Part shown: positions 3,446 to 42,300 of the stretch, one piece after another
Position numbering within the stretch: the stretch's first letter is position 1
Layout of the letters: each line of letters starts with the position of its first letter
NCBI GenBank assembly: GCA_037200525.1
Contig: JBBCGG010000001.1
Span: 2,150,501-2,214,500, forward strand
DNA from: Methylocella sp.
GTDB taxonomy: Bacteria > Pseudomonadota > Alphaproteobacteria > Rhizobiales > Beijerinckiaceae
Length of the DNA: 64,000 bases
Reading direction: 5' to 3'
Notes under the pieces: generated by a model
Seen by the model: the letters and a program-made list of their open reading frames with translations, nothing else
What the model was told of the DNA's origin: nothing
The model's database searches: none
Translations under genes and position numbers: made by a program

Positions 3446-3710
3446 CAGGCCCGAGCGGGTCGGCAGTCTGCCGTTCTTCGCACAACTGCTACAGCATCGT
3501 GAATCCTGAACAGATTTTCACATCCGACTAAGCCAAGCTCCTGCGCCTTTGCGTCGCTGAATATGCAAGGCGTGCGGTCCGTCGCAGCGAACTCGACCGC
3601 TTCGGCGACGGTTCCGAACCCGAGCTTGTCTTGGCGCTCGATCCCGATGAACCTGAAACCATCGGTCGGTCATTCGGCTCCGCTATCTTATGCAGCCTCA
3701 GCCGGGGTCT

Positions 3711-4797
3711 TTATGATGGTCCGATGGGTTGATCGCCCTGGCCTGGGCGCTGGGCCGCTGCCTTGGGGGCGGCTGGAACATAGGGGAAGACCTTCGACGG
3801 CGGCGGGGCCACCGACTCCTTGCCGATGCCGAGGCTGATGGGCGTGTTCGAGGCGATCGTGAACATCACGTCCGGCGCATTGTCCGTCAAGGAGCGGCCG
3901 TTCCACTCAGTAAAGCCGAACGCGGCCGGAGCGCCGATCGTATAGGGGAGCATGTTTGGGAAGAATCGATGCGCGACTTTCTCCGCATAGGCTCGCGGAT
4001 CCTGGGCGGTTCCATTGGCGCTGACGACGCCGGCGATCGCCCTGGCGACAAGGTCGCCGTATGTCGCGAAATCATCGGCCGGCCGCCCGGCGTTGAGGCG
4101 GTTGCCGAGATCTTCGTTGAACTGAGTGAACAGCGGGTGGATCATCGGCAGGCCGACGCGGTTGATCGAACGCCATCCCCCGGCGTCGGTGGCGAGCGTC
4201 GCGACAGCCCACACGCCGACGCGGCGGTTGGCGCCTGCGGTTGCGAGCAGTTCCTGGTCGGGCGCTTCCAGCACGATCGAGTATACGGTGTGGCCGGCGA
4301 ACAGGTTCTTCGCCTTCGCCGGGCTCCAGCCGGTCAAATCGACGACGGCCCCATCCTGGAACGCGTGGCCGACCGCATGCAGCACGTCGGGCTCGATCCA
4401 AAATGGATCGCCCGCTTTGCCGGCCCAGATGCGCAGACCGGATGCCGTAGTGATCGTCTCTCCGGTGGCGCCCTGCGCGATGACTGCGCCGGCCGCATGG
4501 GGGGTCGACAGCCTCGGCGCCTGCGATGCGACGCAGCACAAAGCGCTGCTTGCCGGCGGCGTCGCGTTCGTCGAAGGTGATGCGGTAGGTGAGGTCTTCG
4601 ACGGCGTCGCCGTCGAGATCCACCTTGAATTCGTACATGCCCTCCGGATGATAGCCAGGGGCCGGAATGTCGCCGGCGATCGAGTGACAGACGTTGATCA
4701 CAAACACGGTGCCCGTTTCGCCGCGGAAAACATAGAGATCCGTGATGTCGAGGCGGACGTCTTGCCGAGCTATCGGTGAGTCTAAGTGGTGGGACAT
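3711..4797 (-). pseudogene. DUF4331 protein gene broken by a one-base frameshift
   Basis: The frame from ATG 4797 (MSHHLDSPIARQDVRLDITDLY) matches the start of DUF4331 proteins, whose function is unknown. It continues to about 4505, after which the family sequence (PHAAGAVIAQGATGETITT and onward) runs in another frame to a stop at 3711. The switch falls in a run of six C on the minus strand (4504-4499); five would restore one 362-residue protein. Beyond the shift the sequence looks intact (NLFAGHTVYSIVLEAP, NMLPYTIGAPAAFGF), so either the mutation is recent or it is a homopolymer sequencing error. Confidence 0.8.
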
Positions 4798-5270: not shown

Positions 5271-6110
5271 ATGGTCAATTCTCACGGCCGTTTCGTCTGG
5301 TACGAGCTGATGACGACAGACATGGCGGCCGCCAAGACGTTCTACACGAGGGTCATGGGTTGGAGGGCGCAGGACGCGTCGATGCCCGGCGCCGCCTATG
5401 CCCTGTTCACGGCCGGTAAGGCTTCGGTAACTGGAGTTATGGACCTGCCGGAGGACGCGAAGAAAACGGGCGCGATGTCGCGTTGGCTTGGATATGTCGC
5501 AGTCGAGGACGTGGACGCAGCCGTCGACCGGATCAAGCAGCTTGGCGGAGCAGTGCGCGTCCCGCCAAGGGACGTCCCCAACATCAGCCGCTTTTCGGTC
5601 GTCGCTGATCCGCAGATGGCGGCGCTTGCATTGGTCAAGGGGCTGAAGCCTGGCGAGGCGCAGTCGGCCGAGCTGAACGCGCCGGGGCGCGTCGGCTGGC
5701 ATGAGTTGCTCGCCGCCAACTGGGAGCAGGCGTTCCCTTTCTACAGCGAACTGTTTGGCTGGCAAAAATCGGACTTCCACGCCGGCGAGATGGGCACCTA
5801 TCAGCAATTCTCCGCCGCAGGGGAGACAATCGGCGGCATGTTCACCAAGCCTCCGACATTGCCGTTTCCCTTCTGGCTGTACTATTTCAACGTCGCAGAC
5901 ATCGAGGCGGCGACGAAGCGCGTGGAGGCCGGCGGCGGCGAAATTCTCTATGGCCCGATTGAGGCGCCAGGCGGCGCTTGGATCGTCCATTGCATGGACC
6001 CTCAGGGCGCCGTATTCGGGCTGCTCGACAGACGTCGCCGCAAAGCTATCGGATATTTTATTTCGAGCGCATCGCGCGATCCCTCGGACGCGCGGGGCGG
6101 TAGAGAATAA
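5271..6110 (+). CDS. VOC-family (glyoxalase/dioxygenase fold) protein with two domains
   Basis: Two vicinal-oxygen-chelate modules lie in tandem: residues about 1-120 (GRFVWYELMTTDMAAAKTFY) and about 130-255 (GRVGWHELLAANWEQAFPFY, ending MDPQGAVFGLLD). This layout is common in small cytosolic proteins annotated as glyoxalase-like or antibiotic-resistance-like, usually of unknown substrate. An ATG at 5271 is chosen because a GGAGAAA lies 6-8 bases upstream and the first domain starts there, although the frame stays open for 380 bases further upstream. The last 25 residues are a basic extension outside the fold. It is convergent with the TOMM cluster; a role in self-protection is possible but unsupported. 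Confidence 0.8.
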   Translation: MVNSHGRFVWYELMTTDMAAAKTFYTRVMGWRAQDASMPGAAYALFTAGKASVTGVMDLPEDAKKTGAMSRWLGYVAVEDVDAAVDRIKQLGGAVRVPPRDVPNISRFSVVADPQMAALALVKGLKPGEAQSAELNAPGRVGWHELLAANWEQAFPFYSELFGWQKSDFHAGEMGTYQQFSAAGETIGGMFTKPPTLPFPFWLYYFNVADIEAATKRVEAGGGEILYGPIEAPGGAWIVHCMDPQGAVFGLLDRRRRKAIGYFISSASRDPSDARGGRE

Positions 6111-6167
6111 AACTCGAGAATCTAGACTGGCCGCTGCTGTCCCGCCGGGTTTGAGGCCGTCCCGATC

Positions 6168-7697
6168 CTAATCGGGAGCTACCAACTTCGCGCCGCGACC
6201 GAGCGCAAATTGACCGACCGGGCCCTCGACGTGGAATTCGATCCCGGTCATCTTCGCGAACAAGTCGATGTTCGTGATCCCGATCGCACATCCGCCGAGT
6301 CCCATATCGGTCGCCATCAGGTAGAGCGTTTGCGTCAATACGCCGACATCCTTTAGAATAAGTGAATATGCGATCGAACTGTACTTCCAGGAAATCCGGC
6401 CAAAGCGCGCAGCGATCGTGATCAAGATCTGCGGCGCAGCGGGCGCGCCCATGGCATATTGGGATCCCGCCAGCAGCGCTTCGAGCTCGCTCGCAGGAAC
6501 GCCGATCGGCGCCAACGCGTGAGCGCCGGCGTCATAGTGATAGAAGCCTCGCGCAAGTCCCTCGCATTTGTCGATCGCCAGATAGAGCTCGAGCTCGTAG
6601 GCGGCTCCCGCCGACGGATAAGGCCTCGCGGCGTGACCGCCGTCGTCTAGGTCGAGCTTGGCGTTCGATTTTGGTGCGGCGCGCGCGGCGCCGTGGAGAA
6701 ACTGCGAAAGCTCGGCGAGCGTGATCGGCCGCCGATCATCGAAACTGCGCGTCGAGTGACGCTCCTGTAGGAGCCTTGCTACCGGGGAGATCGTCTCGGG
6801 ATGCGCGGCCGCAAACTTGCGCAAATCGATCTTCTTTCCGGGCCAGCGAGGCCGCACCGCCGGCAGCGGGGAAATGAAGCCGGCGTGAGGATAAACTCCG
6901 CCCAACGGGTTGGCGTGCCGGCCCTCTGTACTGCGCGCGTGGAACAGAAGATCGTGAAAGTCCCAAAGAACGAGGTTGTGGTCGCCTTCGGCCGGTCGAA
7001 GTCCGCCGCCAGCAGCATCGACCTTGAAAACTATTTGGCAATCGAGGAGCAGGGCGAGAAGTTCGAGCCCTGGAAAACCGTCCTCCCGACGCAACTGTTT
7101 GATTTGCCGCGGGGCCGCGAGCATAGCCACAGCGGCGGCAATCTTCGGATTGCAGATTTTGAACAACGTGCCCGCGCGGGGCGACTCCAGGATCATCTCG
7201 TTGCCGCGCCGTCGCATGTAGGCGAACCGCGACAAGACCAGAGAATCCTCGTCGCTGAGCGGTGGCGTTCGCGGCCAATAATCGGGAATCTGCGGTTCGA
7301 TGATGGCCTCGTCGTCGCCAGTGCGCGAATTTCCGAGGCGGTACTCCAATAGGCCGCGTCCGGCCAAACGCCGGACCAATAGATCAATCTCTTTGTCGAT
7401 CTTCCGGCGGGACGCAAATGAGGCGAGCGGCAAACCCACGCGCAGCTTTTCCACGCGATCCGCGACGCCGGCGCTGAACCTTCCCAGACTGACCGAATAA
7501 TCGTCGAAATACGCGACGATTTCTCCATCCGCATGCGCTTCGAGCCTGACGCGACCACCAATCCGGGCGGAAATGGTTGCCTGCGCGGCCCTTCGCACTC
7601 TCTTTGATCCGGGAGCGCGCAAGCCAGGATGGCCCTCAGGTATGGGGGTGAATCGGATTGAGTTCGTTTTCCTTGAGCGGCTGGTCGCGCCATCCAA
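6168..7697 (-). CDS. SagB-type FMN dehydrogenase (azoline to azole) of the TOMM cluster
   Basis: This 509-residue protein is the dehydrogenase of a thiazole/oxazole-modified peptide pathway. The nitroreductase-like FMN domain fills the C-terminal half (RHSTRSFDDRRPITLAEL, YPSAGAAYELELYLAID, GVLTQTLYLMATDMGLGGCAIG). The N-terminal half contains a winged-helix-like region (RRKIDKEIDLLVRRLAGRGLLEY) as in longer SagB proteins. Known SagB enzymes oxidise the azolines made by the cyclodehydratase to aromatic azoles. Its start at 7697 lies inside the end of the YcaO gene (62-base overlap), so the two are translationally linked. It is the last gene of the minus-strand cluster and converges on the VOC gene. 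Confidence 0.87.
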   Translation of the reverse strand: MDGATSRSRKTNSIRFTPIPEGHPGLRAPGSKRVRRAAQATISARIGGRVRLEAHADGEIVAYFDDYSVSLGRFSAGVADRVEKLRVGLPLASFASRRKIDKEIDLLVRRLAGRGLLEYRLGNSRTGDDEAIIEPQIPDYWPRTPPLSDEDSLVLSRFAYMRRRGNEMILESPRAGTLFKICNPKIAAAVAMLAAPRQIKQLRREDGFPGLELLALLLDCQIVFKVDAAGGGLRPAEGDHNLVLWDFHDLLFHARSTEGRHANPLGGVYPHAGFISPLPAVRPRWPGKKIDLRKFAAAHPETISPVARLLQERHSTRSFDDRRPITLAELSQFLHGAARAAPKSNAKLDLDDGGHAARPYPSAGAAYELELYLAIDKCEGLARGFYHYDAGAHALAPIGVPASELEALLAGSQYAMGAPAAPQILITIAARFGRISWKYSSIAYSLILKDVGVLTQTLYLMATDMGLGGCAIGITNIDLFAKMTGIEFHVEGPVGQFALGRGAKLVAPD

Positions 7698-9897
7698 GTT
7701 TTACCGGAACGTCGTAAAGCCGGCCACGCGCGAAACGGCGATAGAAATGCCGCAATCCCGGAACGATCACTCTGACGACCGGCACCTCGATGTCGGGGCG
7801 CGTTTGATTGAGAACGAGGAAATCGAGGCCCGCTTGCTTGGCGAGGTCCACGCAGGCGGTCACCTGCTCGCTCGTGTGGAGATTGCCGAACTTCGAACTG
7901 AAGTCGGCTTGGACCAACGGATTCCCGCTCGGCGTCAAGAAGCGATGGTCCTCGAGGCGCAATGGATTGACGCCATCAAGGCTCGATTTCTCCCCGGTCC
8001 CGCCGCCCATCAGACCGAGCGACAGGAATTGATTTAGTTCTGTCAGCGCGCGCAACAAAGCGATTCGCGCATCAAAGTGCGCGCCGGACCCGAACTCAAT
8101 ATTTTCTCGCCCATCTTGCATCCAGTGCGTCACCGCGACAAAGGTCGGAATCCCAAGATCGCTAGTGACGTCGAGCACCCAAAGCCGGCGGCCAGTTTCG
8201 GCCAACTGCTTTCGCAGATCGCGGATATAGGAATCGTCGAACCGGCCGAGGTCTAATTCCGGCCGCTGCAATCGATTGTACCACCAGATCGCGTATGCAT
8301 CCCTTTCCACCAACTCGAGGAAGCCCTGGACGATTGCTTCCTCTAGCGTGTTGCCGGCCGCGCAACCGTTGGAATCCGCTGCAAAGGCGACAGGACCTCT
8401 GTAAAAAAAATACAACAGGCTGGTCGGAAGATATTTGAAGCGTTTGTCGCGCAGAGACCAAACCGGCGACCATTCCATCTCGGCCGATCGATCGAATAAC
8501 GCGGGGGTCGCTCCGAGATCGTCCGGGCCGAACGTCGGAGTGCGGCTCCGCCGCAGCTGCGCCTCGCTGAACAGCAGCACTTTGTTCGGAGAAATGACCT
8601 CATTTTTCGGGAAATCGGTAAACCGCCGCTTCGCTCTGATCTCGTCGCCCTGAAAAATCCCGGAATAGCGTTCGATCGCCTCCATGAGCGCGCTGGCTTC
8701 GCCTTGCTCGGCTGTGCTGCCTTTCCCGAAGCTGCCGCTGCTGAGCCCCACCCTGAGCTCATTGACCGTCTCGGGGCGCCCTGAAAAATTATGCGCGGCA
8801 TGGTAGTTGGTGTTCAAGGGCAGGTCGGCTTGGATCCGCTCGAGACGCGAGACGACGCCGGTGAGCGGACTTACATGCTTGCGGAAACGCGCAACCGTGG
8901 CCGACGGCGAAACGCTGCGGTATCCGCCGCTGGTCATGACCAGCTTGTCGGCGGCGACAAGCTCGATCGGCTCTGGCGCGCGGCGGGGATCACGCAGCTT
9001 CTTGCGGCCACAGCTCGGACATTGCGGGCGCGCCGCGACGTAATGCTTCACGATGGTCGAGCCGAGCAGGTCTAGGCTTACGATGTGATCGCTCAATTGC
9101 GTGCGAAAATCGCTGGCGATCGCTTTCGCAATCTCAACAGCCGCAAAATGGATGGCGCTCTGTCCGAACGTCTCCTTGGCCAGCGGCGAAACGGCGATGC
9201 AGCGGGCCTCTCTCCGGTCGAGAAGCGCCTTGATCTCCCGGTTCCTTTTCATCCGCTCGTCAAGACAGCTCCAGCAGGCGCCCTTGCCTGGTCTGAACAC
9301 CGGCCCCACCAACGGGAAAATGCCGGAGGGTTGGACGAGCAACCAGGGGGCGCCGTCCGCCAAATGGTGCTGGTTCAGTTCGGCCAATCGCGGGTCGAGA
9401 TAATCGTTCACCAAGGTGACCGTCAGATCGGCGGAGCGCTTGACGACGCGAACGCCAAGCTCGCTTAGGGCGGCGCCGAGTTCCGTCGCCCCCTGCACGT
9501 CGATTGATTGGATGCGCACACGACATTTCTGGAGATTTCTCTCCGCGATCTCCGGCGGCAGGCCAAGGCTCGCCCAATAAGCGGCCGCGGCGCCATTCGA
9601 AGAGCTCGACGCCGGGATGACATAACGCCGATCGAGCAACCGCGTTAAGGCTTCGCGAATTTGCTCCGACGGAAATTCATGCTCCAACTCGCGAACGAGC
9701 TCCTGAAAGCTCCTTCCACCCTTCGCTATCGCGGCGGCGAGCGCACAATAGAGTTCGCCGTGAAGCAAAAACTTCCGGTCCTCGGAATAGAGGCACACGA
9801 CATCAGGCGGCAGCACATAGACGGAGAAGTTCGGCGCGAACTGCGGAACGTCCTTGCTGTTTTGCTGGATAAAGTCGTTTCCCTGATAACCTGTCAT
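7636..9897 (-). CDS. TOMM cyclodehydratase: leader-binding ThiF-like domain fused to YcaO
   Basis: This 753-residue fusion should bind the precursor leader and cyclise core cysteines to thiazolines with ATP. Residues about 20-95 form a winged-helix leader-binding (RRE) module (VLPPDVVCLYSEDRKFLL to LLDRRYVI). A ThiF/E1-like region follows, with two Cys pairs that would hold zinc (CWSC 208-211, CPSC 293-296). The YcaO domain starts near 345; its ATP-site segments are KGSTAEQGEASALMEAIER and GNTLEEAIVQGFLELVERDA. The protein ends NPIHPHT, not the PxPxP usual in azoline-forming YcaO proteins. It starts four bases after a small reading frame and 260 bases after the precursor gene. Confidence 0.9.
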   Translation of the reverse strand: MTGYQGNDFIQQNSKDVPQFAPNFSVYVLPPDVVCLYSEDRKFLLHGELYCALAAAIAKGGRSFQELVRELEHEFPSEQIREALTRLLDRRYVIPASSSSNGAAAAYWASLGLPPEIAERNLQKCRVRIQSIDVQGATELGAALSELGVRVVKRSADLTVTLVNDYLDPRLAELNQHHLADGAPWLLVQPSGIFPLVGPVFRPGKGACWSCLDERMKRNREIKALLDRREARCIAVSPLAKETFGQSAIHFAAVEIAKAIASDFRTQLSDHIVSLDLLGSTIVKHYVAARPQCPSCGRKKLRDPRRAPEPIELVAADKLVMTSGGYRSVSPSATVARFRKHVSPLTGVVSRLERIQADLPLNTNYHAAHNFSGRPETVNELRVGLSSGSFGKGSTAEQGEASALMEAIERYSGIFQGDEIRAKRRFTDFPKNEVISPNKVLLFSEAQLRRSRTPTFGPDDLGATPALFDRSAEMEWSPVWSLRDKRFKYLPTSLLYFFYRGPVAFAADSNGCAAGNTLEEAIVQGFLELVERDAYAIWWYNRLQRPELDLGRFDDSYIRDLRKQLAETGRRLWVLDVTSDLGIPTFVAVTHWMQDGRENIEFGSGAHFDARIALLRALTELNQFLSLGLMGGGTGEKSSLDGVNPLRLEDHRFLTPSGNPLVQADFSSKFGNLHTSEQVTACVDLAKQAGLDFLVLNQTRPDIEVPVVRVIVPGLRHFYRRFARGRLYDVPVKLGWRDQPLKENELNPIHPHT

Positions 9898-9901
9898 GAG
9901 G

Positions 9902-10114
9902 TCAGTACGCGCACCTTCGCCACGGCTCCGGACGCCGGCCCCAGACGCATTCGCTGCTCGCCTGGGCTTCGCAATCCAACTCGCGCACTAGCATTTCTAA
10001 ATCTGGAGTCTCTCGATAAGGTTCGCCGCCCAATCGATCCGCGTGCATGCGCCTCAAGCGCGCACCGCCGGGGCGGCGCGAACAAGCCGTCGTCACCGAC
10101 TCGAGCGTGGTCAA
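9902..10114 (-). CDS. Possible small protein coupled to the YcaO gene
   Basis: A 70-residue frame (from a TTG at 10114; an ATG at 10048 would give 48 residues) fills the gap between the precursor and YcaO genes and stops 4 bases before the YcaO ATG, a spacing typical of translational coupling. Its third codon positions are more GC-rich than those of the competing frame 9894-10139, which instead overlaps the YcaO start as ATGA. It has four cysteines, a helical stretch (PDLEMLVRELDCEAQ) and a Trp/Arg-rich end. I know no homologue. It could be an accessory peptide, a second substrate, or simply a leader frame; there is no clear ribosome site. Confidence 0.35.
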   Translation of the reverse strand: MTTLESVTTACSRRPGGARLRRMHADRLGGEPYRETPDLEMLVRELDCEAQASSECVWGRRPEPWRRCAY

Positions 10115-10160
10115 ACTTGGCTCTCTCGACCTGCGTCAATGCAATCGGACGGCGCTCCAG

Positions 10161-10625
10161 TCAGCACACGAAGCACCCTCCCCAGGACAAGCAGCAGCCG
10201 CCGCCCCAGCCCCATCCGCCGCCACAGCCGCAACCGCCGCAGCCTCCAAAGCCACAGCCTCTGCCGCAACCCCTGCAGCCGCCATGCCCGCAGCCGCCGC
10301 AGCCTCTAAAGCCGCCGCCGCAGCCACGTCCGCCGCAGCCGCGTCCACCACAGCCGCCGCCGTGGCAACCGCAGCCGCCTCGAGCGAGTTGTATCCCTGA
10401 CTGCGCTCCGAGTTGTTCCTTGTCAAAGAGGTGGAACGTCGCGAGGCTGACGTCGGAAATCTCTTCCTCACCGAAATTGAGGACCTGAAACGGCGCCATA
10501 TTCACCTGCGGCATCTCGGCTGCCGACCCGCTGGCCGACGCCGCCAAAGACGCCCCCGCGATTCCGAGCACAGATGCAACCTTGCTTGGGCGCTTCAACT
10601 TTAAATTGCGTTTCGCTTGCGGCAT
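10161..10625 (-). CDS. Gly/Cys-repeat TOMM (thiazole peptide) precursor
   Basis: This 154-residue peptide has a leader of about 82 residues and a core of about 72 that is almost only Gly (39) and Cys (17) with a few Arg, His, Phe and Trp, arranged as GGCGGC and RGCGGC units and ending GGCFVC. That is the substrate composition expected for a cyclodehydratase making many thiazoles, like microcin B17 or the Gly/Cys-rich bacillus heterocycle peptides. The leader starts with a basic segment, a hydrophobic Ala/Gly/Ser run (SVLGIAGASLAAS) resembling a signal peptide, and an acidic helix (FGEEEISDVSLATFHLFDKE) that probably docks with the enzyme. A strong GAGGAGG lies 10 bases before the ATG. It heads the cluster. 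Confidence 0.85.
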   Translation of the reverse strand: MPQAKRNLKLKRPSKVASVLGIAGASLAASASGSAAEMPQVNMAPFQVLNFGEEEISDVSLATFHLFDKEQLGAQSGIQLARGGCGCHGGGCGGRGCGGRGCGGGFRGCGGCGHGGCRGCGRGCGFGGCGGCGCGGGWGWGGGCCLSWGGCFVC

Positions 10626-11238
10626 GGCAGAGTTCCTCCTCTCTGACTTACTTCAAACAATTGCCTGACGAATCCACGGCATCCATAGCACCCTTTCCAC
10701 GCGTGGAATAGAGTTGATGCGACCCATCGCGGTCCCAGACGGCGGCTCGATCAGCTTCATCGATGGCTCCGCGCCACTCGGATTTGCAACGCCGGAGGGG
10801 CCTTCGACGCATCTCTCCAAATACGCGATTTCGGCATCGCCCTGATCAATCTTTTGAGAAGTCCCGCGACAACCATCCAGGGTTGCGGCCGGGTCGGATT
10901 CATATCTGCGCTTCCGCCTTACGCTAAGGGCCGTTAACGACACGGTCTGGTCGAGGGCCGCAAGCCGCTGTCCGTCAGGATCGTCAACCGATTGATGAGA
11001 TGCGTTTGTCTAGAAGAGAGCGGGAACGCGGCGAAGCTATTTGAGACGCTCTCGATGGTAGCCAAGCAGCAATCAGTGCGCTGAGCTTTTTTGCTGAGCG
11101 GGTGCGAGCGCGCGCCAAGCTTAGTAGGTCGCGCCTTAAAAGCAAACGCGCAAGGGAACCTTTCAACTTCTCCGCTCTTAGCCCCGCCTGGTCGGGGAAA
11201 CTGCGCTCCCAGTCACGCTAAACGCCAAGGAGTTTCTT
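10626..11238. other. Divergent intergenic region between the TOMM cluster and the PA2169-family gene
   Basis: The region should contain the promoter of the minus-strand TOMM cluster and that of the plus-strand gene at 11239. A 96-codon frame (10943-10653, minus) crosses it without a convincing ribosome site or family match. The palindrome at 10696-10709 is its only clear motif. Confidence 0.4.
10696..10709. promoter_or_regulatory. 14-bp perfect palindrome upstream of the precursor gene
   Basis: TTCCACGCGTGGAA reads the same on both strands and lies about 70 bases before the precursor ATG, where an operator or activator site would be expected. No regulator gene is adjacent, so the binding protein is unknown. 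Confidence 0.3.
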
Positions 11239-11687
11239 ATGGACATCGACAAGGACGAGGTAATCTCGACGTTGAACGCTCTGCTTCAAACGACGAAAGA
11301 CGGTGAGGAGGGATTTCGCACCTGCGCGCAGAACGTCAGAAGCACGGCGCTTAAGGCCGTTTTTGAGACGGCGGCCACGAGATGCGACGAGGGGGCGGCG
11401 GAACTTAAGACAAAGATCCGCGGCCTGGGTGGGCAACCAACTGAAAGGGGGTCGACGTCAGCGTTGCTTCATCGCGGCTGGACAAATCTTAAAGCGTCCA
11501 TCGTAGGAATGGATGATCACGCTGTGCTCGTCGAATGCGAACGCGGCGAAGACGCCGCAAAAGGAGCTTACGAAGCGGCGCTCAAAAAAGATTGCCCCCC
11601 GATATAAGAACAATCGTCGAGCGCCAATTCAGAGGCGTAATGGAAAATCACGACCGGGTGCACAACCTTCGCAACGCAGCGGCGTGA
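11239..11687 (+). pseudogene. PA2169-family (DUF2383) four-helix protein gene, frameshifted near its end
   Basis: The first 119 codons match the PA2169/DUF2383 four-helix-bundle family (STLNALLQTTKDGEEGF, TKIRGLGGQPTERGS, AYEAALKKDCPP), small ferritin-like proteins of unknown role often tied to stress. The frame then stops at 11607. The missing family end ([29 protein letters not shown]) is present in another frame up to a TGA at 11685-11687. The break is a run of six C (11595-11600); seven would restore a protein of about 148 residues, the usual length. An AAGGAG lies shortly before the ATG. A homopolymer sequencing error is as likely as a real mutation. Confidence 0.8.
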
Positions 11688-28146: not shown

Positions 28147-30882
28147 TCATGACTTTATAAGAACCGAGACGGGGAGCGTCGCGAAAATTTCCTCCAGCGG
28201 CAAAGCGGCGTCGCCGCCTTTGAACCTGCGTTTGGTAAAGACATCGGTCCAGCATCCCATTGGCAGGACCGCCCCGGCGTCACCCCAATTCGGGTCGGCC
28301 TCACGCAGGCCTGGATGACGGGCGACGAATACGGCGGCTGCAACGGGCTCGGCCTCGCGCATAAAACCAAGAACAAGATTGGATTTTTCGCCGCCGACCG
28401 CCAGTGGTTCATAGCTCCCATTTGCAAACAGGATTTCCTCACGTTTGCGAAGGTCAAGAAGCAGCGCCGTCACGGCCAGTTTAATGTGGCCGTCCTGCCA
28501 GCGGCTCCGCAGGTTGCGCATCGCGATGTTGGGATTTTCAACAATCATCGGAAGGACGGCGCTCAGAGCCTGCCGGCGCACGTCAAAGTCGATCGGACGA
28601 CGGTTGTCCGGATCAACAAGGCTAAGATCCCACAACTCGCAACCTTGGTAGATGTCCGGCATGCCAGGTGCAGTAAGTTTAAGCGTTACCTGCGCCAAAC
28701 TATTGTCGACGCCCAGCCGAGCCACATGCCGCGCGAAAGGCAGAAAGCTTGACAGAAATGCTGAACTATTAGCGTCGAGAGTGGCCATAGCGAGGGACTG
28801 CATCGCATTTTCGTAGTCGACATCAGGCGCCGACCAGGATGAATGAACCTTAGCCTCACGCATCGATTTCTGCAGCGCTCCCTTGACGCGAGCGGCATAG
28901 GCTTCGAGCCCAGATACGTCGAGCTTCTCTAGCAATTCAACCGGACACGACCCGACGAGAAGCTGGTAGAGCAGATATTCATCGTTGCGGTCTGGCGGCG
29001 CATCGTTTTCGATGTCGCCAAGGCGCGCCCGCAGCAGTCGGCTCCAGATCTGCACCTGCCGCGCCCATTCATCCGGCAAGTCAGACAGCGCTGCGAGCCG
29101 CGCCCGCACATCCTCGCCACGCTTGGTATCGTGCGTCGACGTCGCAAGCATGGCATGCGGCCAGTTCTTTGCGCGCTCCGCGTTGACTTTGTGGAATCCC
29201 GAGGCGGAAATCCCGAAGCGTTGTGGATCGCCCCCTACCTCGTTTAGCGCCACGAAGCGGTTATAACGATAGAAGGCAGTATCCTCGAGCCCCTTCGCCA
29301 TAACCGGCCCGCTGTATTGCTGCAGCTTCATCGAGAAACGAAGTATGCCGGCGTGGCTGAACCCGCTCTTTGGCTCCGCGGTAAGCTTGCCAGACAACGC
29401 CCCGCCGAGAAAATCAAACACGGTGGGGTCAATGGCCGAATCAATGCGGCGAGCCCGAGCTAACGCCCAATCCAGATAACGGCGATCGGCTTCGTCGCTG
29501 GCGGAATCAAACTCTATATAAGTGCGGTAGACAGGAAAGCAGGCGACGAGCTGCTTGATTGCCCGTTGCAGGATCTGCCGCGTGAAATCCGCGGTCATTG
29601 GGTTTTGACGAGCGACGCGAGCGGCGTCGCGACCGAGCGTGTGGAGTTCGCTCGCCATCTCGTTCTCCATGATTCGAATCTTCGATTCATAGACAATTTG
29701 AGAGAGCGATCTGTCTGATCCGATGAAATTGCGGTAGGTCTCAGTGAAGCTTTTTTCCGCGGCTGGGTTGACCAATACGCCCAGAACCAGATTGGCGAAG
29801 TCGTAGCCGGTAGTTCCTTCTATCTTCCAGTCTGGCCGCAACGCTTCATGCGAGGCGAGGATTTTTTCCACCACAAGATAAAATGGCCTCCTCACGGCCC
29901 CCCGCAAGCAATCGAGATAGGCCTTTGGATCCAGCAGTCCATCTATGTGGTCGATGCGAAGGCCGTCAAGAACGCCTTCCTCGATCATCGGCAGGATCAG
30001 CGCATGCGCGTGCCGGAACACAGCCGGTAATTCCATGCGCAGAGCTGCAAGGTCGTTGATATTGAAGAATCGGCGATAGTTGATGTCGTCACCGGCGACG
30101 CCAAAGTAGGCAATGCGCCAGAACTGTCGCTGAATAAGCGCATCCAGCGCTTTCCAGTCGCCATTGAGAAATGCAATTGATTGCTCGAGGGCGGACTTGG
30201 CCTCAGGCTGTTCGCGAATCAATGTCGCGAGTTTCGTCTTGAGCACGACCGCGCGCTCTTTGATTTCGGGACGCCAGTGCTTCAGGTCCGAAAACGTATC
30301 GCCGATGTAGTCGAGGTCGGAGTTCTCGTGGCCCAGCACCACGTGATAGTCCAGTGGGCAGATCGGCAGCTTGTGTGCGTCGTAGGCCCAAACGGCGAGA
30401 CCGCCTTCATCTGGGTCGAATTTTATCTTGAGCTTGCCGCTCTCGAGTTCGACGCCATATTGGTCGCCGAGGAACGGAACGAGCACCTTATTGTGCAGAT
30501 ATCTATTGTCAGGGTCCCAGTCGATGTCGAACCATCCGGCATGGTCTGCATCGGGCCCCCATTCCAGGACGTCCAGCCACAAAGGATTGTCGGCGCCGCC
30601 GACGCCCATGTGGTTCGGTACAAAGTCGAGAATCTGGCCGAGACCTGCCTCCGCAAAGGCCGCCGACATATTATGGAAATCCTGCGCGTCGCCGAGCTCT
30701 GGATTGAGCGAAAGATGATCGGTGATGTCGTAGCCGTGCGTGCTGCCAGGCCGCGCTTTGAGGTAGGGTGAGGCATAGACGTGGCTGACGCCAAGTTCAG
30801 CAAGATAAGGGGCGAGATGGGCGGCGTCCGCAAAGCGAAACCCCGCGTGAAATTGCAGACGGTATGTAGCGCGGGGCGTCAT
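28147..30882 (-). CDS. treY: Maltooligosyl trehalose synthase
   Basis: TreY rearranges the reducing end of a maltooligosaccharide to an alpha-1,1 link, the first step of trehalose release from glycogen. This 911-residue GH13 protein has the expected motifs (DFVPNHMGVGG, DGLRIDHIDGL, VEKILASHE, STHDTKRGEDVRARL). The ATG at 30882 is chosen because it overlaps the treZ stop as ATGA and fits the family start MTPRATYRLQF; an upstream start at 30915 would overlap treZ more. It is the last gene of the glgX-treZ-treY operon. Confidence 0.95.
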   Translation of the reverse strand: MTPRATYRLQFHAGFRFADAAHLAPYLAELGVSHVYASPYLKARPGSTHGYDITDHLSLNPELGDAQDFHNMSAAFAEAGLGQILDFVPNHMGVGGADNPLWLDVLEWGPDADHAGWFDIDWDPDNRYLHNKVLVPFLGDQYGVELESGKLKIKFDPDEGGLAVWAYDAHKLPICPLDYHVVLGHENSDLDYIGDTFSDLKHWRPEIKERAVVLKTKLATLIREQPEAKSALEQSIAFLNGDWKALDALIQRQFWRIAYFGVAGDDINYRRFFNINDLAALRMELPAVFRHAHALILPMIEEGVLDGLRIDHIDGLLDPKAYLDCLRGAVRRPFYLVVEKILASHEALRPDWKIEGTTGYDFANLVLGVLVNPAAEKSFTETYRNFIGSDRSLSQIVYESKIRIMENEMASELHTLGRDAARVARQNPMTADFTRQILQRAIKQLVACFPVYRTYIEFDSASDEADRRYLDWALARARRIDSAIDPTVFDFLGGALSGKLTAEPKSGFSHAGILRFSMKLQQYSGPVMAKGLEDTAFYRYNRFVALNEVGGDPQRFGISASGFHKVNAERAKNWPHAMLATSTHDTKRGEDVRARLAALSDLPDEWARQVQIWSRLLRARLGDIENDAPPDRNDEYLLYQLLVGSCPVELLEKLDVSGLEAYAARVKGALQKSMREAKVHSSWSAPDVDYENAMQSLAMATLDANSSAFLSSFLPFARHVARLGVDNSLAQVTLKLTAPGMPDIYQGCELWDLSLVDPDNRRPIDFDVRRQALSAVLPMIVENPNIAMRNLRSRWQDGHIKLAVTALLLDLRKREEILFANGSYEPLAVGGEKSNLVLGFMREAEPVAAAVFVARHPGLREADPNWGDAGAVLPMGCWTDVFTKRRFKGGDAALPLEEIFATLPVSVLIKS

Positions 30883-32663
30883 CGCGTCGTCTCCACGCAC
30901 CAGCGGACCGACCACGGCCCAAAAACGATTCCCGTATCGCCTTCAGACCATATGACGCGTCCCGCCGCCGCAGGAAATTCGATGTGCGCTTTGGATAGAT
31001 TAGCCGAAAGCGCCAGAACCTCGCCAAGACCGGCCGACCATCGAACGTCTACGGCGCCATCGCCATGGACGACGCTCTCGCCGCCACATTTGATCTGCTT
31101 TAGCAGCGGCGCGATCTCCCGGCGGCGGACCGAGATCAGGTCGCGGTATCGCGCAATGTGTGAGGCATCGACGAGATCCCAATCCAACTTAGCGGATCGG
31201 AACGTTGCTTCCGCCAACGGATCAGGAATGCGTTCGCGTTGCCTTGGATCGGCGAATTCCGGAAAGCGGGCGAACTCCTGGCGCCGCCCGTCGCGAATGG
31301 CGTCGGCGAGATCATTATCGAAATCGCAGAAGAATGGAAACGGCTGCCGCGCGCCCCACTCCTCGCCCATGAAGATCATCGGCGTCTGAGGAAGCAGCAG
31401 ATATATAGCCGAAAGGGCGCGCATGACATTGGCGGGCGCAATCATCCCGAGCCGCTCGCCAAAGGCCCGGTTGCCGATCTGATCATGATTTTGGATGAAG
31501 GCCACAAATGCGCCCGGAGGCAGGAAGGCGGAAGGTTCGCCGCGCGGCGAACCACGGTAGGACATCATCTCGCCTTGATACGCGAAACCTTCAGCGAGGG
31601 CCTTGGCGAGAAAATCAGTCCGGCCCTCGTAATCGGCATAATATCCAAAACACTCGCGCGTGGCTGTGGTGTGCAAGACATGATGGAGATCATCATTCCA
31701 TTGCGCAGTGTAAAGCGTCACCGCGCAACCTTCGCGCTTGAGACGACGAGCGTCATTATCTTCGTTTTCGAGCAGCAAATGAATCGGACGGCCGGCGAAG
31801 GCGCGTGCGCGCTCGGCGAGTTCATCGAGGAGATGTTTCTCGCTTTCGTCGACGATAGCGTGAACGGCATCGAGGCGTAGCCCGTCAAGATCGAACTCCT
31901 CGAGCCAATAGAGCGCATTGTTAATGACGAATTCCCGCACAGGCCTGCAGTCGTCATAATCATAGTTGATTGCCGCACCCCAAGGCGTGTGGTGAGTGTC
32001 CGTGAAGAAAGCCGGAGCGTATGCCGGGAGGTAATTGCCATCCGGCCCAAAGTGATTATAGACAACGTCGAGCAACACCGCGATGCTCCGAGCGTGGGCG
32101 GCTTCAACTAAAGCTTTGAGGTTCTCCGGACGGCCGTAAGAGGAATCCGGCGCGTATAGCAAAACGCCGTCATAGCCCCAATTACGCCGGCCTGGGAAAT
32201 CCGCAACGGGCATGATCTCGATTGCGGTGACGCCGAGAGCGACCAGGTGATCAAGCTTTTCGATCGCGGCGAGAAAAGTGCCGTCCTCCGTGAAAGCGCC
32301 GATGTGGAGCTCGTATAGAACAAGGTCCTCCCAGTTTCGGCCGCTCCAGTTCTCTGTCCACTCGTAGCCGCCGGGGTCTATGACTTCGCTGGGACCATGG
32401 ACATCGCGCGGCTGAAAACGCGAGGCGGGATCCGGCACCCGCCGGCCATCGGGCAAAACATATTGGTATAGCGTCCCGGGCCTTGCTTCGCCGGTCAGGA
32501 GTTCATACCAACCGCCTGGCAATTTCTTCATGGGCAGAAGCGCGCCGGCTTCATTGAGGAGGACGCATACGCTTTCGACGCCTGGAGCCCACAGGCGGAA
32601 GCGGACCACGCCGTTCCGCTCCAAATTTGCTCCGCCTTGCGCCCGGTGGACCCGCGTCGTCAC
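30879..32663 (-). CDS. treZ: Maltooligosyl trehalose trehalohydrolase
   Basis: TreZ cleaves trehalose from the maltooligosyl trehalose made by TreY. The protein has an N-terminal carbohydrate-binding domain (VRFRLWAPGVESVCVLL) and a GH13 barrel with DVVYNHFGPDGNYL, GLRLDAVHAI, LLENEDND and IQNHDQIGNRAFGERL. A GTG at 32663 overlapping the glgX stop (GTGA) is the likely start, giving 594 residues; a start at 32717 is less likely. It sits between glgX and treY with 4-base overlaps on both sides. Confidence 0.94.
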   Translation of the reverse strand: MTTRVHRAQGGANLERNGVVRFRLWAPGVESVCVLLNEAGALLPMKKLPGGWYELLTGEARPGTLYQYVLPDGRRVPDPASRFQPRDVHGPSEVIDPGGYEWTENWSGRNWEDLVLYELHIGAFTEDGTFLAAIEKLDHLVALGVTAIEIMPVADFPGRRNWGYDGVLLYAPDSSYGRPENLKALVEAAHARSIAVLLDVVYNHFGPDGNYLPAYAPAFFTDTHHTPWGAAINYDYDDCRPVREFVINNALYWLEEFDLDGLRLDAVHAIVDESEKHLLDELAERARAFAGRPIHLLLENEDNDARRLKREGCAVTLYTAQWNDDLHHVLHTTATRECFGYYADYEGRTDFLAKALAEGFAYQGEMMSYRGSPRGEPSAFLPPGAFVAFIQNHDQIGNRAFGERLGMIAPANVMRALSAIYLLLPQTPMIFMGEEWGARQPFPFFCDFDNDLADAIRDGRRQEFARFPEFADPRQRERIPDPLAEATFRSAKLDWDLVDASHIARYRDLISVRRREIAPLLKQIKCGGESVVHGDGAVDVRWSAGLGEVLALSANLSKAHIEFPAAAGRVIWSEGDTGIVFGPWSVRWCVETTR

Positions 32664-34819
32664 CCCCCGGTCGCCCTTGTTTCTTCGGGCACTAGCGCGA
32701 ATAGCAGGAAAGACCACGCCGCGATTGCATATTTATGTCCAAAGCTGAAGGTCTGGTTCTCCAGCTCTTCCATCTCCCCGGAGACATCGGTGTCGATCAT
32801 CAAGGTCCAGCGCTGGTCTGAACCGCCCTGGCTTGGAAGGATAAAGTCCGCGTTGTCATGCCAAGCGTTGAAGATCATCAAGATTGTCGCGTCCTCCCCG
32901 CGCTTGCGGATGCCGGTCGGTTGCGCGCGGCCATCGAGCATGAGGCCGAAGCAAGAGGCGCCGGATTCCCAGTCGCCGGCGCTCATCTCACCGCCTCCGG
33001 GGTTAACCCAGGTAAGTTCCTTTATATCGAGTTCCTCATTATACGCATCAGTCAGGAACCGACCACGACGCAAAATCGGAAAGCGGCGACGTAGGGCGGT
33101 TAATCTGCCAACGAAGCGGATCAGGGATCGCTCATTGTCCCCAAAGCTCCAATTCACCCACGAGATATCGTTGTCCTGGCAATAAGCATTATTATTGCCC
33201 TTCTGAGTGCGGCCGAATTCGTCCCCCGCCAGCAACATTGGCGAGCCTTGGCTCAGCAGCAACGTCGCCAGCATATTGCGACGCTGGCGGCCGCGAATGC
33301 AATTGATCTCGGCCTCGTCGCTCGGCCCCTCGACGCCACAATTATCCGAGCGATTGTCCGAGGAGCCGTCCTTGTTATCCTCGCCGCTAGCCTCATCGTG
33401 CTTGTCGTTGTAGGTAACGACGTCATTGAGCGTGAAGCCATCGTGGGCGGTGATAAAATTCACCGAAGCCCAAGGCTTGCGACCCTGATGATTGAACGTC
33501 GCCGGCGACGCCAGCAACCGAGGCGCGAGATCCGCGGCCTTGCTGGCGCCTCGCCAAAAATCGCGGACCGCGTCGCGAAACTTGTCATTCCATTCCGCCC
33601 ATCCTGGCGGAAACTCTCCGACTTGATAACCGCCGGGACCGCAATCCCACGGTTCAGCGACAAGCTTCACGGCGCCAAGCACCGGATCCTGGCTGCACGC
33701 TTTGAGAAAGCCTGATTGATTGTCGAAGCCGTTCGGTTCGCGGGCGAGAATGGTGCCGAGATCAAAGCGGAACCCATCGACATGCGTCTCATTTACCCAA
33801 TAACGCAGGCTGTCGGTGACCATCTGAATCACTCGCGCGTGGGAGAGATTGACGGTATTTCCGGTGCCCGCATCATTAATGTAGAAGCGCTTCTGATCAG
33901 GGAGCAATCGATAATAGGAGGCGTTGTCGATGCCTTTGAACGATAAGGTCGGTCCGCGCTCATTGCCCTCCGCTGTGTGATTGTAGACTACGTCAAGGAT
34001 GACTTCGAGATCGGCTTCGTGAAATCGCGCCACCATTTCCTTGAATTCGCGAAGGCAGTTTGCGCGATCTGACGCGTAACGAGGATCTGGCGCGAAGAAG
34101 CCGATCGTATTGTATCCCCAATAATTGGTGAGACCTTTTTCGAGAAGGTGACTATCGTTGATAAAGCTGTGAATCGGCAGCAGCTCAACCGAGGTCACGC
34201 CAATCGACTTGATGTGGGCCAAAACATCGGCGGAGCCGAGGCCTGCATAGGTGCCGCGCAGATGCTCATCGACGTTGGGATGCAGCTTTGTGTAGCCGCG
34301 CACGTGAGTTTCGTAAAATATGGTTCTATCCCAAGCGAGAGGCTTACGTTGGGGCTGGCCGCGCCAGTCAAAATTTGGATCAACGATGATGCACTTGGGT
34401 ACAAACGGCGCGCTGTCGCGCTCATCGAAGGATAGATCCTCGTCCGGGTGGCCGATCGAGTAGCCGAAGATCGCGGGGTCCCATTGGAGATCGCCCATGT
34501 GAGCGCGGGCGTATGGGTCAAGCAGCAGCTTCATTGGATTGAAGCGGTGCCCGGCATCCGGCTCGTAGGGGCCGTGAACGCGATAGCCGTAGACTTGGCC
34601 TGGCCCGATATCAGGCAACCAGCCATGAAAGATCTGGTCTGTATACTCTGGCAGCGTCACGCGCTCAAGTTCGGCGCCTCCCCCAGCATCAAATAGGCAA
34701 ACCTCAACCTTCAAAGCATTTGCCGAGAAAATCGCGAAGTTCACTCCCCGGCCGTCCCAACATGCGCCGAGCGGATAAGGCAAGCCTTCGCGGACGCGGC
34801 TCTTGATATCGTCCCCCAT
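32660..34819 (-). CDS. glgX: Glycogen debranching enzyme GlgX
   Basis: GlgX hydrolyses alpha-1,6 branches of phosphorylase-limited glycogen and supplies linear chains for TreY/TreZ. The 719-residue product shows the GH13 motifs ILDVVYNHTAEG, VDGFRFDLGTIL, VAEPWDCGPGGYQVG and ITAHDGFTLNDVVTY. The ATG at 34819 has a strong GGGGAGGAG 4-12 bases upstream and begins MGDDIKSRVREGLPYPLG, as in the family, so it is preferred over the open frame that extends to 34966. It leads the trehalose operon. Confidence 0.95.
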   Translation of the reverse strand: MGDDIKSRVREGLPYPLGACWDGRGVNFAIFSANALKVEVCLFDAGGGAELERVTLPEYTDQIFHGWLPDIGPGQVYGYRVHGPYEPDAGHRFNPMKLLLDPYARAHMGDLQWDPAIFGYSIGHPDEDLSFDERDSAPFVPKCIIVDPNFDWRGQPQRKPLAWDRTIFYETHVRGYTKLHPNVDEHLRGTYAGLGSADVLAHIKSIGVTSVELLPIHSFINDSHLLEKGLTNYWGYNTIGFFAPDPRYASDRANCLREFKEMVARFHEADLEVILDVVYNHTAEGNERGPTLSFKGIDNASYYRLLPDQKRFYINDAGTGNTVNLSHARVIQMVTDSLRYWVNETHVDGFRFDLGTILAREPNGFDNQSGFLKACSQDPVLGAVKLVAEPWDCGPGGYQVGEFPPGWAEWNDKFRDAVRDFWRGASKAADLAPRLLASPATFNHQGRKPWASVNFITAHDGFTLNDVVTYNDKHDEASGEDNKDGSSDNRSDNCGVEGPSDEAEINCIRGRQRRNMLATLLLSQGSPMLLAGDEFGRTQKGNNNAYCQDNDISWVNWSFGDNERSLIRFVGRLTALRRRFPILRRGRFLTDAYNEELDIKELTWVNPGGGEMSAGDWESGASCFGLMLDGRAQPTGIRKRGEDATILMIFNAWHDNADFILPSQGGSDQRWTLMIDTDVSGEMEELENQTFSFGHKYAIAAWSFLLFALVPEETRATGG

Positions 34820-34848
34820 CTGCTCCTCCCCAAGTGGTGAGCTTTCGT

Positions 34849-34874
34849 AACCCTGAACTCGGCCCGTAGGTTCC
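34849..34874 (-). promoter_or_regulatory. Possible EcfG (general stress) promoter of the trehalose operon
   Basis: On the minus strand GGAAC is followed after 17 bases by GGTT, one mismatch from the alphaproteobacterial EcfG consensus GGAAC-N16/17-CGTT, about 30 bases before the glgX ATG. Trehalose synthesis is a common stress-response output, which makes the match plausible. Confidence 0.35.
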
Positions 34875-35080
34875 CGACTTTCTCTGCCGCATATTCTCGA
34901 AGTTTTTCCCGCTCCGCGAGCTCTTCGTTGGACAGGCGCGCGTCGGTAAGTCCGGCTGCGGATCATCGGATTGAAAGGACCGGATTTGAGCGGCCTTTGA
35001 AACGCGCGGCCGGCTTGAACCTTTCACGCCCGGACCCGTTAGAGCGGGACTTAGCGAGGAAACGTCAAAAGGAGAACGCG

Positions 35081-38845: not shown

Positions 38846-39196
38846 AAGGCAGGCCTTTGTGTTAGACGACGCGCTTTCCGCATGGCTTTCATTGGCGCTC
38901 GGGGAGGAGAGATAGTCTTCGCGGATAGGAGACGAAGCGACAAAGACGCTTTCGATCGTCGGCGGCACGCTGCCAGCCTAGGCTCTACCCCGGCGGCAAC
39001 TGAAATAGGGGCAAACGGCGGAAGGCGCCAAAATGGCATAAGATGTTGATTTTTATTGGCGCAATGGCGGAGAGGGAGTCCGCCGAATTAGCGTTCAAGG
39101 CAGTTCAAGGTCGTGTACGTTGTCCTCTATGGATCAGCTAGTTACGAGATAATCTGTCTTCCTTCGTCCAGCTTAGTTTGCTACAATCGACTTTCG
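38846..39196. other. Spacer between chromosome genes and the integrated element
   Basis: No gene, hairpin or promoter stands out. The left repeat of the integrated element starts directly after it at 39197. Confidence 0.4.
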
Positions 39197-39220
39197 AGAT
39201 TGGGGCCAGAGTTGGGGCCG
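39197..39220 (+). repeat. Left direct repeat (attL candidate)
   Basis: The core ATTGGGGCCAGAGTTGGGG plus five flanking bases is repeated exactly at 53665-53688. It is built from two TTGGGGCC units and lies 10 bases before the integrase ATG. Confidence 0.75.
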
Positions 39221-39229
39221 GAGAAAACT

Positions 39230-40465
39230 ATGGCTAGGAAGTTACACAAGCTTACGGCGGCAACGGTTAAGGCGTTGAAGAGGCCCGGAAGGCACGGCGA
39301 TGGCGCGGGCTTGTATTTGCACATCGACGCCGGCGGCCGGCGCCGCTGGATCTTCCTCGCGATTCGCGGCAGCAAGCGGGGTGGAAAACGGCAGGAAATG
39401 CGGCGGGAAATGGGCCTTGGGGGCTACCCGGCCGTCACGCTCGCCGACGCGCGTGCCAAGGCCGACGAAGCGCGCAAGCTCGTCGCCGCGGGCGTCGATC
39501 CGATTGAAGCGCGGCGCGAGGCCGGAAAGCCTGAGGCCGGGAAGCCGACGTTCGGCGAGTACGCTGATAAATTCGTTGAAGCCAAGTCAGCTGAGTGGCG
39601 CAACGACAAGCATCGCGCTCAATGGAAAATGACGCTCGAAAAATATGCCGCACCCCTGCGCCCGCAGCCCGTTGGCGAAATAGACACGGCTGCGGTGCTG
39701 ACGGTCTTGCAGCCCATTTGGGGGAGCAGGCCGGAAACAGCGTCGCGATTGCGCGGCCGGATCGAATCTGTTCTCGATGCGGCAAAGGCGGAGGGTCATC
39801 GATCGGGAGAGAATCCCGCGCGCTGGAAAGGGCACCTCGACAAGCTCTTGGCGAAGCGTCAGCAGCTCACTCGCGGACATCACGCGGCCCTGCTGTACTC
39901 TGACGTACCGAAGTTCATTAGCGATCTCCGCGCGATGAACGCGATGGCTGCAAAGGCCCTCGAGTTCCTGATTCTGACCGCAGCGCGGTCGGGCGAAGTG
40001 CTCGGCGCTCGATGGGATGAAATAGACCTTGAGGCCAAAGTTTGGACGGTTCCGGCGACACGGATGAAAGCCGGGCGCGGACATCGCGTTCCGCTATCCG
40101 GCCGCGCGGTCGAGATCCTTGAAGAACTCGCCGACGGCAAAACAAGCGATTTCATCTTTCCCGGACAGCGAGCCGGGCGCCCGCTCTCCAACATGAGTAT
40201 GGAAATGGCTCTGCGTCGCATGAAAATGGACGCGACTACGCATGGCTTTCGAAGCAGCTTCCGGGATTGGGCGGGCGAAGAGACGCATTTTCCACGCGAG
40301 GTCGCCGAGGCAGCGTTGGCTCATGTCATCGGCGATAAGGCCGAGCAGGCCTATCGGCGCGGGGATGCTCTGGAAAAGCGCCGCGGGTTGATGGAGGCCT
40401 GGGCCATGTTTTGCGAGCCCAAGGCGGCTGCGAATGTGACGCCAATGGCGCGCGGTGCCGACTGA
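39230..40465 (+). CDS. int: Tyrosine recombinase (integrase)
   Basis: The 411-residue protein has the DUF4102 arm-binding N-terminus (KLTAATVKALKRPGRHGDGAGLYLHID), a core-binding domain, and a catalytic domain with Arg in TAARSGEVLGARWDE, His-x2-Arg in HGFRSSFRDWAGE, His in AALAHVIGD and Tyr in QAYRRGDALEKRR. It integrates and, with an excisionase, excises the element. The ATG at 39230 gives the normal family start MARKLHKLT; a frame extending to 39113 would include the repeat and is unlikely. Confidence 0.93.
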   Translation: MARKLHKLTAATVKALKRPGRHGDGAGLYLHIDAGGRRRWIFLAIRGSKRGGKRQEMRREMGLGGYPAVTLADARAKADEARKLVAAGVDPIEARREAGKPEAGKPTFGEYADKFVEAKSAEWRNDKHRAQWKMTLEKYAAPLRPQPVGEIDTAAVLTVLQPIWGSRPETASRLRGRIESVLDAAKAEGHRSGENPARWKGHLDKLLAKRQQLTRGHHAALLYSDVPKFISDLRAMNAMAAKALEFLILTAARSGEVLGARWDEIDLEAKVWTVPATRMKAGRGHRVPLSGRAVEILEELADGKTSDFIFPGQRAGRPLSNMSMEMALRRMKMDATTHGFRSSFRDWAGEETHFPREVAEAALAHVIGDKAEQAYRRGDALEKRRGLMEAWAMFCEPKAAANVTPMARGAD

Positions 40466-40557
40466 ATTCACGAACGCGCGGGGATAGGCTGGCCGGCCGA
40501 CAAGCGAGATAGTCCACTTGCTTCCCCGCGTTCCCAGGACACTCGCTAGGACACGCG

Positions 40558-41187
40558 ATGAACGACGATCCCGCCTCGGTTGGGGCCTCCGAAGAATGGG
40601 TTCCGCTTGATGAAGGCGTCCGTATGATCGCCCGCCTTTCGACCCGTGAAGTGCTACGTCGCCCCGGCGGCGTGCCGCCACAGGCGATGGTCGACCTTAT
40701 TGAGTCCTTGCGGCAAGGGCTCATCGCTAGCCGGGGCGAGCGACACGAAACCAGGGAGATGGAGATTATCTCGGCCCATGATTGGCAAGAATACGAATCT
40801 GACTGGTCCTCCGTCAGTCATCGCGACTTGCGTTATCGCGGTCGACGTCTACCCGTATTCGAATCCATCGAGGTCGACGCTATTGGCATAAGGCGCCTAT
40901 TCACGCCGGTGTCCGACAAAGCGCCCAAATCGAAAAATAAAGGTGGCAGGCCGCCCGCCGTCAATTGGGAGATGGTGAAGTCCGAAACTTTTCGATTGAT
41001 GGACGAGAACGGCGATTTCACTCCGGATGACAGGAAGTGGAACGCGCAGGCCCGGCTTGAACAAGATCTGGAAAGCTTTTGCGAAGAAAAGCTTGGCGTT
41101 GTTGTCGCGATGTCCGGCATTCAGCAGCGCATTCCGGCATGGCTCGATGAATGGCGCATAAAAAAACAGTCGTACCCAGAAACCTAG
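40558..41187 (+). CDS. Hypothetical protein of the integrated element
   Basis: A 209-residue soluble protein. The middle has a Lys-rich patch with GRPP (KSKNKGGRPPAVNWEMV), an AT-hook-like motif often seen before a helical C-terminal segment in integrative-element proteins of Hyphomicrobiales. The C-terminus (EEKLGVVVAMSGIQQRIPAWLDEW) is helical. It may bind DNA; no family is recognised. It lies between the integrase and the AlpA-like gene on the same strand. Confidence 0.65.
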   Translation: MNDDPASVGASEEWVPLDEGVRMIARLSTREVLRRPGGVPPQAMVDLIESLRQGLIASRGERHETREMEIISAHDWQEYESDWSSVSHRDLRYRGRRLPVFESIEVDAIGIRRLFTPVSDKAPKSKNKGGRPPAVNWEMVKSETFRLMDENGDFTPDDRKWNAQARLEQDLESFCEEKLGVVVAMSGIQQRIPAWLDEWRIKKQSYPET

Positions 41188-41230
41188 TTGTTGGGCGTTT
41201 CTGGGCGTTTCCGGGTGCGCCGGCGGTGTC

Positions 41231-41280
41231 TGAGGGCGAATCTCGTGGTCGTTCATAACCGACCACGAAAGATGCCCTCA
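41231..41280. promoter_or_regulatory. 50-bp nested dyad upstream of the AlpA-like gene
   Basis: TGAGGGC-n5-TCGTGGTCG-n8-CGACCACGA-n5-GCCCTCA is symmetric in both arms and both spacers. It ends one base before the ATG at 41282, so it can act as an operator or as a hairpin covering the start region of the mRNA. Confidence 0.65.
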
Positions 41281-41281
41281 A

Positions 41282-42296: not shown

Positions 42297-42300
42297 TCCG

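Follow-up and report, generated by a model that had tools for sequence, protein, structure and literature searches.

Within the window, the 64,000-nucleotide stretch of Methylocella sp. DNA that was analysed, a TOMM-type gene cluster occupies positions 6168 to 10625. The first-pass annotation had placed a compact cluster at these coordinates on a single strand, and both the coordinates and the minus-strand layout are exact by the open reading frame list and the sequence. The precursor gene (10161..10625, minus strand) is an open reading frame of 154 amino acids with no match among the Pfam and NCBIfam models, and its leader family recurs in 103 relatives. An AGGAGG ribosome-binding sequence, read directly from the DNA, lies nine bases 5' of its ATG (10635..10640, minus). 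By composition criteria, residues 1 to about 36 (10518..10625, minus) are predicted to be signal-peptide-like, running from basic through hydrophobic to small residues. Alignments and pattern counts define a conserved leader box, EEEISDVSLATFHLFDKE, at residues 53–70 (10416..10469, minus). The core, residues 83–154 (10164..10379, minus), holds 39 Gly and 17 Cys in 72 residues, as had been reported, and ends in the motif CCLSWGGCFVC (10164..10196, minus), which follows the family pattern CCxSWGxCxxC.

Two enzyme genes follow on the same strand. The first (7636..9897, minus) encodes a leader-binding/YcaO fusion cyclodehydratase of 753 amino acids, and the second (6168..7697, minus) encodes a SagB-type FMN dehydrogenase with a ThcOx domain (TIGR03605, PF22767, PF00881). 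Counted from a TTG codon inside the fusion gene, the SagB-type protein has 509 amino acids, and the overlap leaves the real start of its gene in doubt. A plus-strand gene (5271..6110) converges on it and encodes a two-domain VOC-fold protein of 279 amino acids, matching PF00903 in two stretches. The earlier account of the cluster was correct for its three genes, and left out the VOC gene, which lies outside the coordinates it gave, the signal-like N-terminus of the precursor, and the one to seven precursors that go with one enzyme set in each genome. A scan of positions 5900–11300 revealed no promoter-like site 5' of the precursor and one weak terminator-like site, fewer than in shuffled sequences. 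The GC content of the module is close to that of the surrounding DNA.

Other features of the window were also recorded. On the minus strand at 3711–4797, a DUF4331 gene is spread over two overlapping frames (3711–4541 and 4072–4797) that match different parts of PF14224, and is probably frameshifted. Three adjacent minus-strand genes of the alpha-amylase family lie at 28147–34966, two with a CBM_48 match, of which one is below the Pfam cut-off. The region from about 39113 to 51897 carries genes for a phage-type integrase (39113–40465), a DUF5906 protein (42381–43895), a ParA-like ATPase (45012–46085) and an SLT-domain protein (48775–51897), which suggests an integrated element.

The identities that had been proposed for the two enzymes were confirmed by NCBIfam scores above the curated cut-offs. 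The fusion protein consists of a winged helix (PF21084), a leader-binding domain (TIGR03882, 149.8 bits against a cut-off of 36.9) and a YcaO domain (PF02624; TIGR03604, 237.6 bits against 219.25), and the SagB-type protein scored 174.1 bits with TIGR03605 (cut-off 78.4). Against 30 relatives the fusion shows 61–81% identity, and the family's C-termini mostly read NPIHPHT or TPFLPHT. Its nearest solved structures, over the whole length, are the heterocyclases LynD (E 7e-193 with the family profile) and TruD. The broad TOMM/linear azol(in)e class is marked by a YcaO protein with a leader-binding domain, in many members by a SagB-type FMN-dependent azoline dehydrogenase, by a leader followed by a core rich in Cys, Ser or Thr, and by azole or azoline rings in the product; the enzymes and the precursor type are found here, and the rings are predicted.

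Of the precursors in the fetched relatives' loci, 88 were extracted and 86 are complete. The window's leader is 32–63% identical to those of the fetched relatives; the open reading frame is therefore coding, and an artefact of GC-rich DNA is ruled out by this conservation together with the co-occurrence with the enzymes described below. The leader box is present in a loose form in all 86 complete precursors and in a tight form, EE[IML]x[DG][VI][ST]LATF, in 80 of them, and is likely to be the binding site of the fusion protein. The motif CCxSWGxCxxC forms the exact C-terminal end of 64/86 precursors, and of 76/86 when close variants are counted. Among the other ten, five have different tails (L015, L083, L084, L086 and L093), the C-terminus is different again in L033 and in the second copy of L034, L014 terminates early, and the pattern missed tail variants in L054 and L073. 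Four of these precursors (L083, L084, L086 and L093) retain the same leader box and have, in place of the Gly/Cys core, a short patch of Cys and a tail rich in Pro and Lys; they may represent either another type of product or decayed cores.

The composition of the cores points to cysteine as the residue to be modified. Of the 1175 Cys in the 76 tailed precursors, 835 are preceded by Gly; Ser (2.1%) and Thr (0.07%) are both rare in the core, and the commonest Cys spacing is three (585 spacings, 53%). The window's core is less regular, with five as its most frequent Cys spacing, and contains one Ser and no Thr. On an assumed background of 0.8% Cys, the binomial probability of at least 17 Cys in 72 residues is 2e-20. 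Judged from these sequences and from the enzymes encoded beside them, azole rings very probably form at the core cysteines, and the window's product would carry at most 17 thiazoles.

The first-pass annotation considered the precursor unlike known ones. This holds for the window's precursor, which matches no model, TIGR03601 (heterocycloanthracin, HCA) included, so that membership in the HCA family was rejected. It does not hold for the whole family, since 3 of 13 family precursors, the window's not among them, match TIGR03601 (best E 5.4e-7, an E-value to which no cut-off was applied). A genome scan with TIGR03601 gave no match above the cut-off in five genomes, and matches below it were also found in 10 of 14 control genomes. 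The HCA systems of Bacillus resemble the module in their Gly-Cys repeat core, in a fused cyclodehydratase with a SagB-type B protein and in precursors that are often distal, according to the part of PMC4603692 consulted. The same part of that paper places an F protein in all HCA clusters, whereas no F-type gene is among the genes common to the module loci, a comparison limited to shared neighbours. Also, the signal-like N-terminus, the tail motif and the VOC protein are not mentioned for HCA in those sections, and the module's leader and CCxSWGxCxxC tail do not match TIGR03601. Anabaenasin precursors are likewise rich in Gly and Cys, and mobilisin clusters contain B, C and D proteins alone (PMC4603692, in part). 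However, the anabaenasin cyclodehydratases are discrete rather than fused, and the hosts named for the two groups are cyanobacterial or actinobacterial, which sets them apart from the module by description (same source, sections consulted).

Likeness of the precursor to cyanobactins had also been denied, and this is borne out. The fusion enzyme, unlike the precursor, is cyanobactin-like over its whole length, with LynD and TruD as its best solved relatives; the ThcOx domain of the dehydrogenase is a further likeness. The module differs from cyanobactins, as these are generally known, in the leader and core of its precursor, and no PatA/PatG-type protease is among the neighbours shared by its loci. 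With the enzyme scores, the lack of a model for the window's precursor and the literature search reported below, the description of a TOMM-type cluster whose Gly/Cys precursor stands outside the named families was upheld.

The module is a large family of the Hyphomicrobiales. In a collection with a single genome for each species, its leader has 103 matches, and the loci of the best 80 of these relatives were fetched. Sixty-three of these best 80 are titled Bradyrhizobium and the remainder are Methylocapsa and MAGs, the non-Bradyrhizobium MAGs belonging mostly to Xanthobacteraceae, Hyphomicrobiales and Beijerinckiaceae. The leader also occurs in a Methylovirgula, on a Bradyrhizobium plasmid and on one contig of a viral collection. 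On the viral contig (L015), the leader-bearing precursor at 3634–4350 follows directly on a phage large-terminase gene, itself in two frames, and precedes a gene of sugar-transporter type. Across 297 genomes of the order, the leader is present in five (the window's genome counted) and the fusion in six, one of them only distantly related. In the window's genus, which closeness to Methylocapsa acidiphila suggests to be Methylocapsa, the same 4 of 15 genomes carry fusion, VOC and precursor, and in two others there is a VOC relative whose identity does not exceed 53%. Among 117 Bradyrhizobium genomes, 51 have VOC (E up to 1e-40), 51 the leader and 53 the fusion. Two of the fusion matches are distant, at 35% identity; without them, all three are present in the same 51 of 117.

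Each of these 51 Bradyrhizobium genomes has one close fusion gene, and together they have 86 precursor places, with one to seven precursors per genome and two to seven in 16 of the 51. Unlinked precursors are absent from the 66 genomes that lack a close fusion. The locus set comprised 51 fetched enzyme loci and the window (52 in all), and 34 precursor loci that contain no enzymes. The precursor lies upstream of the fusion gene in all 51 fetched enzyme loci, partly by construction, since the loci were fetched by their precursors. It is likely, although deduced from co-occurrence, that one enzyme set modifies precursors encoded elsewhere in the genome. That the Gly/Cys protein is instead an unmodified metallothionein-like or structural protein, with the enzymes adjacent by chance, might be argued from the many precursors that lie far from any enzyme and from the fact that the predicted modification rests on sequence. 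This is highly improbable, given that the precursors, unlinked copies too, are confined to the genomes with a close fusion and that the gene order just described recurs, in part by construction.

A shared-neighbour analysis showed four genes alone to be common to the loci. A fifth conserved gene was sought in the same analysis and rejected, as any other shared gene occurs in at most 18 of 86 loci, and no transporter or protease family is among the genes in common.

The signal-like N-terminus is a feature of the family. Crude criteria of hydropathy, charge, a small-residue site and an uncharged hydrophobic stretch were passed by 80 of 86 precursors, 20 of 355 background open reading frames and none of the 143 enzyme and VOC reading frames of the module; the 86 results are not independent of one another, since the precursors are homologous. 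The 86 precursors contain no lipobox and, by the pattern searched, no Tat-like RR motif. The sequences lean towards Sec-type export of the precursor. Sec signal peptides are rare in bacterial RiPPs, and their use in the natural host has been demonstrated for bufferins alone, according to the sections consulted of a 2025 paper (PMC12452194). Bufferins and other RiPPs made by MNIO enzymes share with the module Cys-rich precursors with N-terminal Sec signal peptides (same paper, in part), and differ by description in relying on an MNIO and a partner protein rather than on a YcaO fusion and SagB. The peptide could accordingly be compared with the copper-chelating bufferins, which also combine many Cys with such an N-terminus (PMC12452194, in part), and be a periplasmic Cys/azole peptide that handles copper or other metals, buffering rather than killing; a multicopper oxidase gene does adjoin the Methylovirgula module. 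That gene is found at one locus only, no metal gene family occurs among the shared neighbours, and the enzymes are of YcaO and SagB types, not MNIO, all of which make a metal-handling role quite unlikely.

The VOC gene is the fourth member of the module. Of the 52 enzyme loci, 50 contain it alongside the enzymes: 49 of the 51 fetched, by tblastn, and the window. Mechanical calling of open reading frames gave it in 43 enzyme loci and one other, and the tblastn count was preferred. The two exceptions are L014 and L039, the latter a 4.7-kb contig. L014, in a genome of the same family (G238), has fusion and SagB-type genes with no VOC gene beside them and a precursor that does not carry the tail motif. 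In the 49 fetched loci, the VOC gene is upstream and divergent in 36 and downstream in 13, at a distance of about 5 kb in L018. Among the 34 enzyme-less precursor loci it is present in L057 and L062, in both of which the contig ends no more than about 400 bases beyond the precursor; L063 gives a weak match of 29%. In the genome with seven precursors (G348), a second VOC gene adjoins a second precursor. A tree of 49 module VOC proteins (L057 and L062 included) and 26 unlinked ones, the best matches from the order-wide survey, separates the two as groups with support of 100/99. One contig in the set (L054) belongs to a MAG labelled Opitutaceae; its VOC protein groups inside the Bradyrhizobium ones, and the label is probably a binning error.

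The linkage, the two layouts, the co-occurrence and the clade together rule out the VOC gene as a random neighbour, with linkage and co-occurrence not independent of each other because the genes are adjacent. In the order, 60 of 297 genomes contain VOC relatives (E up to 1e-40) and six contain the fusion, so the fold also has a different and older use. Among solved structures, the module's VOC protein is most like Rv0577 (3oxh), to which the family profile gives E 8e-48. The positions that we take to be the metal-binding His of the VOC pattern correspond to 10 and 143 here and are both Trp, and the presumed Glu positions are mostly Ala or Gly. The same Trp residues are found in all 26 unlinked relatives, for which reason they were dropped as evidence of azole stacking; other conserved residues are likewise common to both groups, and only three positions separate the module group from the unlinked one. 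The residues favour binding over metal catalysis, in a manner not specific to the module. By analogy with bleomycin-binding VOC proteins, in which a VOC fold that has no metal site binds an azole ligand, the module protein is tentatively proposed to bind the azole peptide.

Azole RiPPs are typically antibacterial, and the cluster could encode an ordinary TOMM bacteriocin with cyclised Cys that leaves by an unlinked transporter, its hydrophobic N-terminus being a mere feature of the leader and the VOC gene a co-travelling one for small-molecule detoxification. The wide occurrence of VOC relatives in genomes that do not carry the module agrees with this, as does the report that HCA precursors are often far from their enzymes (PMC4603692, in part). 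Such a bacteriocin is nevertheless unlikely, in view of the signal-like N-termini of 80 of 86 precursors, the loci without a common exporter family, and a VOC gene that goes with the module in 50 of 52 loci, co-occurs with it in an identical set of 51 among 117 genomes and, in its linked copies, forms a single clade.

The reading preferred here, thiazole formation followed by export through the precursor's own signal, is given a joint probability of roughly 0.55. The fusion protein would bind the leader box, EEExxDVSLATF, and cyclise many core cysteines, mostly those preceded by Gly, to thiazolines, which the SagB/ThcOx-type enzyme would oxidize to thiazoles. The modified peptide would then exit by a Sec-type route, using its signal-peptide-like N-terminus, and the leader would be removed by signal peptidase and an unlinked protease; such a route and protease would account for loci that have no exporter or protease family in common. 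The same enzyme set would also serve precursors encoded elsewhere in the genome. As the module's own partner, the VOC protein may bind the azole peptide in the cytosol, the role favoured here, and so serve self-protection or act as a chaperone.

No description of the module family was found in the open-access literature searched, supplements not covered. The main text of PMC4603692, as far as consulted, does not contain the strings rhizob- or methylo-, and its supplementary tables may list such clusters unnamed. The YcaO-TfuA clusters of a paper that mentions Bradyrhizobium were considered and set aside, as they are TfuA-linked thioamide clusters with CCRG-2-like precursors, different from the module (PMC8120280, in part). 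Clusters of the LAP type in methanotrophs are merely counted in the portion of PMC11964084 consulted.

The module represents a real and conserved TOMM subfamily that is unusual in three respects: its precursors are signal-like, they are dispersed, and a VOC partner is dedicated to it. With 51 of 117 sampled Bradyrhizobium genomes carrying it, the module is common in this major genus of soils and root nodules. The fuller proposal, a new TOMM subfamily in which precursors leave by their own signal, one enzyme set serves dispersed and diversifying precursors, and a VOC protein binds poly-thiazoles as immunity factor or chaperone, is rather doubtful as a whole. If right, it would add signal-peptide export to the YcaO/SagB RiPPs, give a single enzyme pair a naturally occurring library of Gly/Cys cores, and make a plain claim about VOC function, open to test with just two purified components. 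The VOC protein would then be a bleomycin-resistance-like solution reused for a ribosomal peptide.
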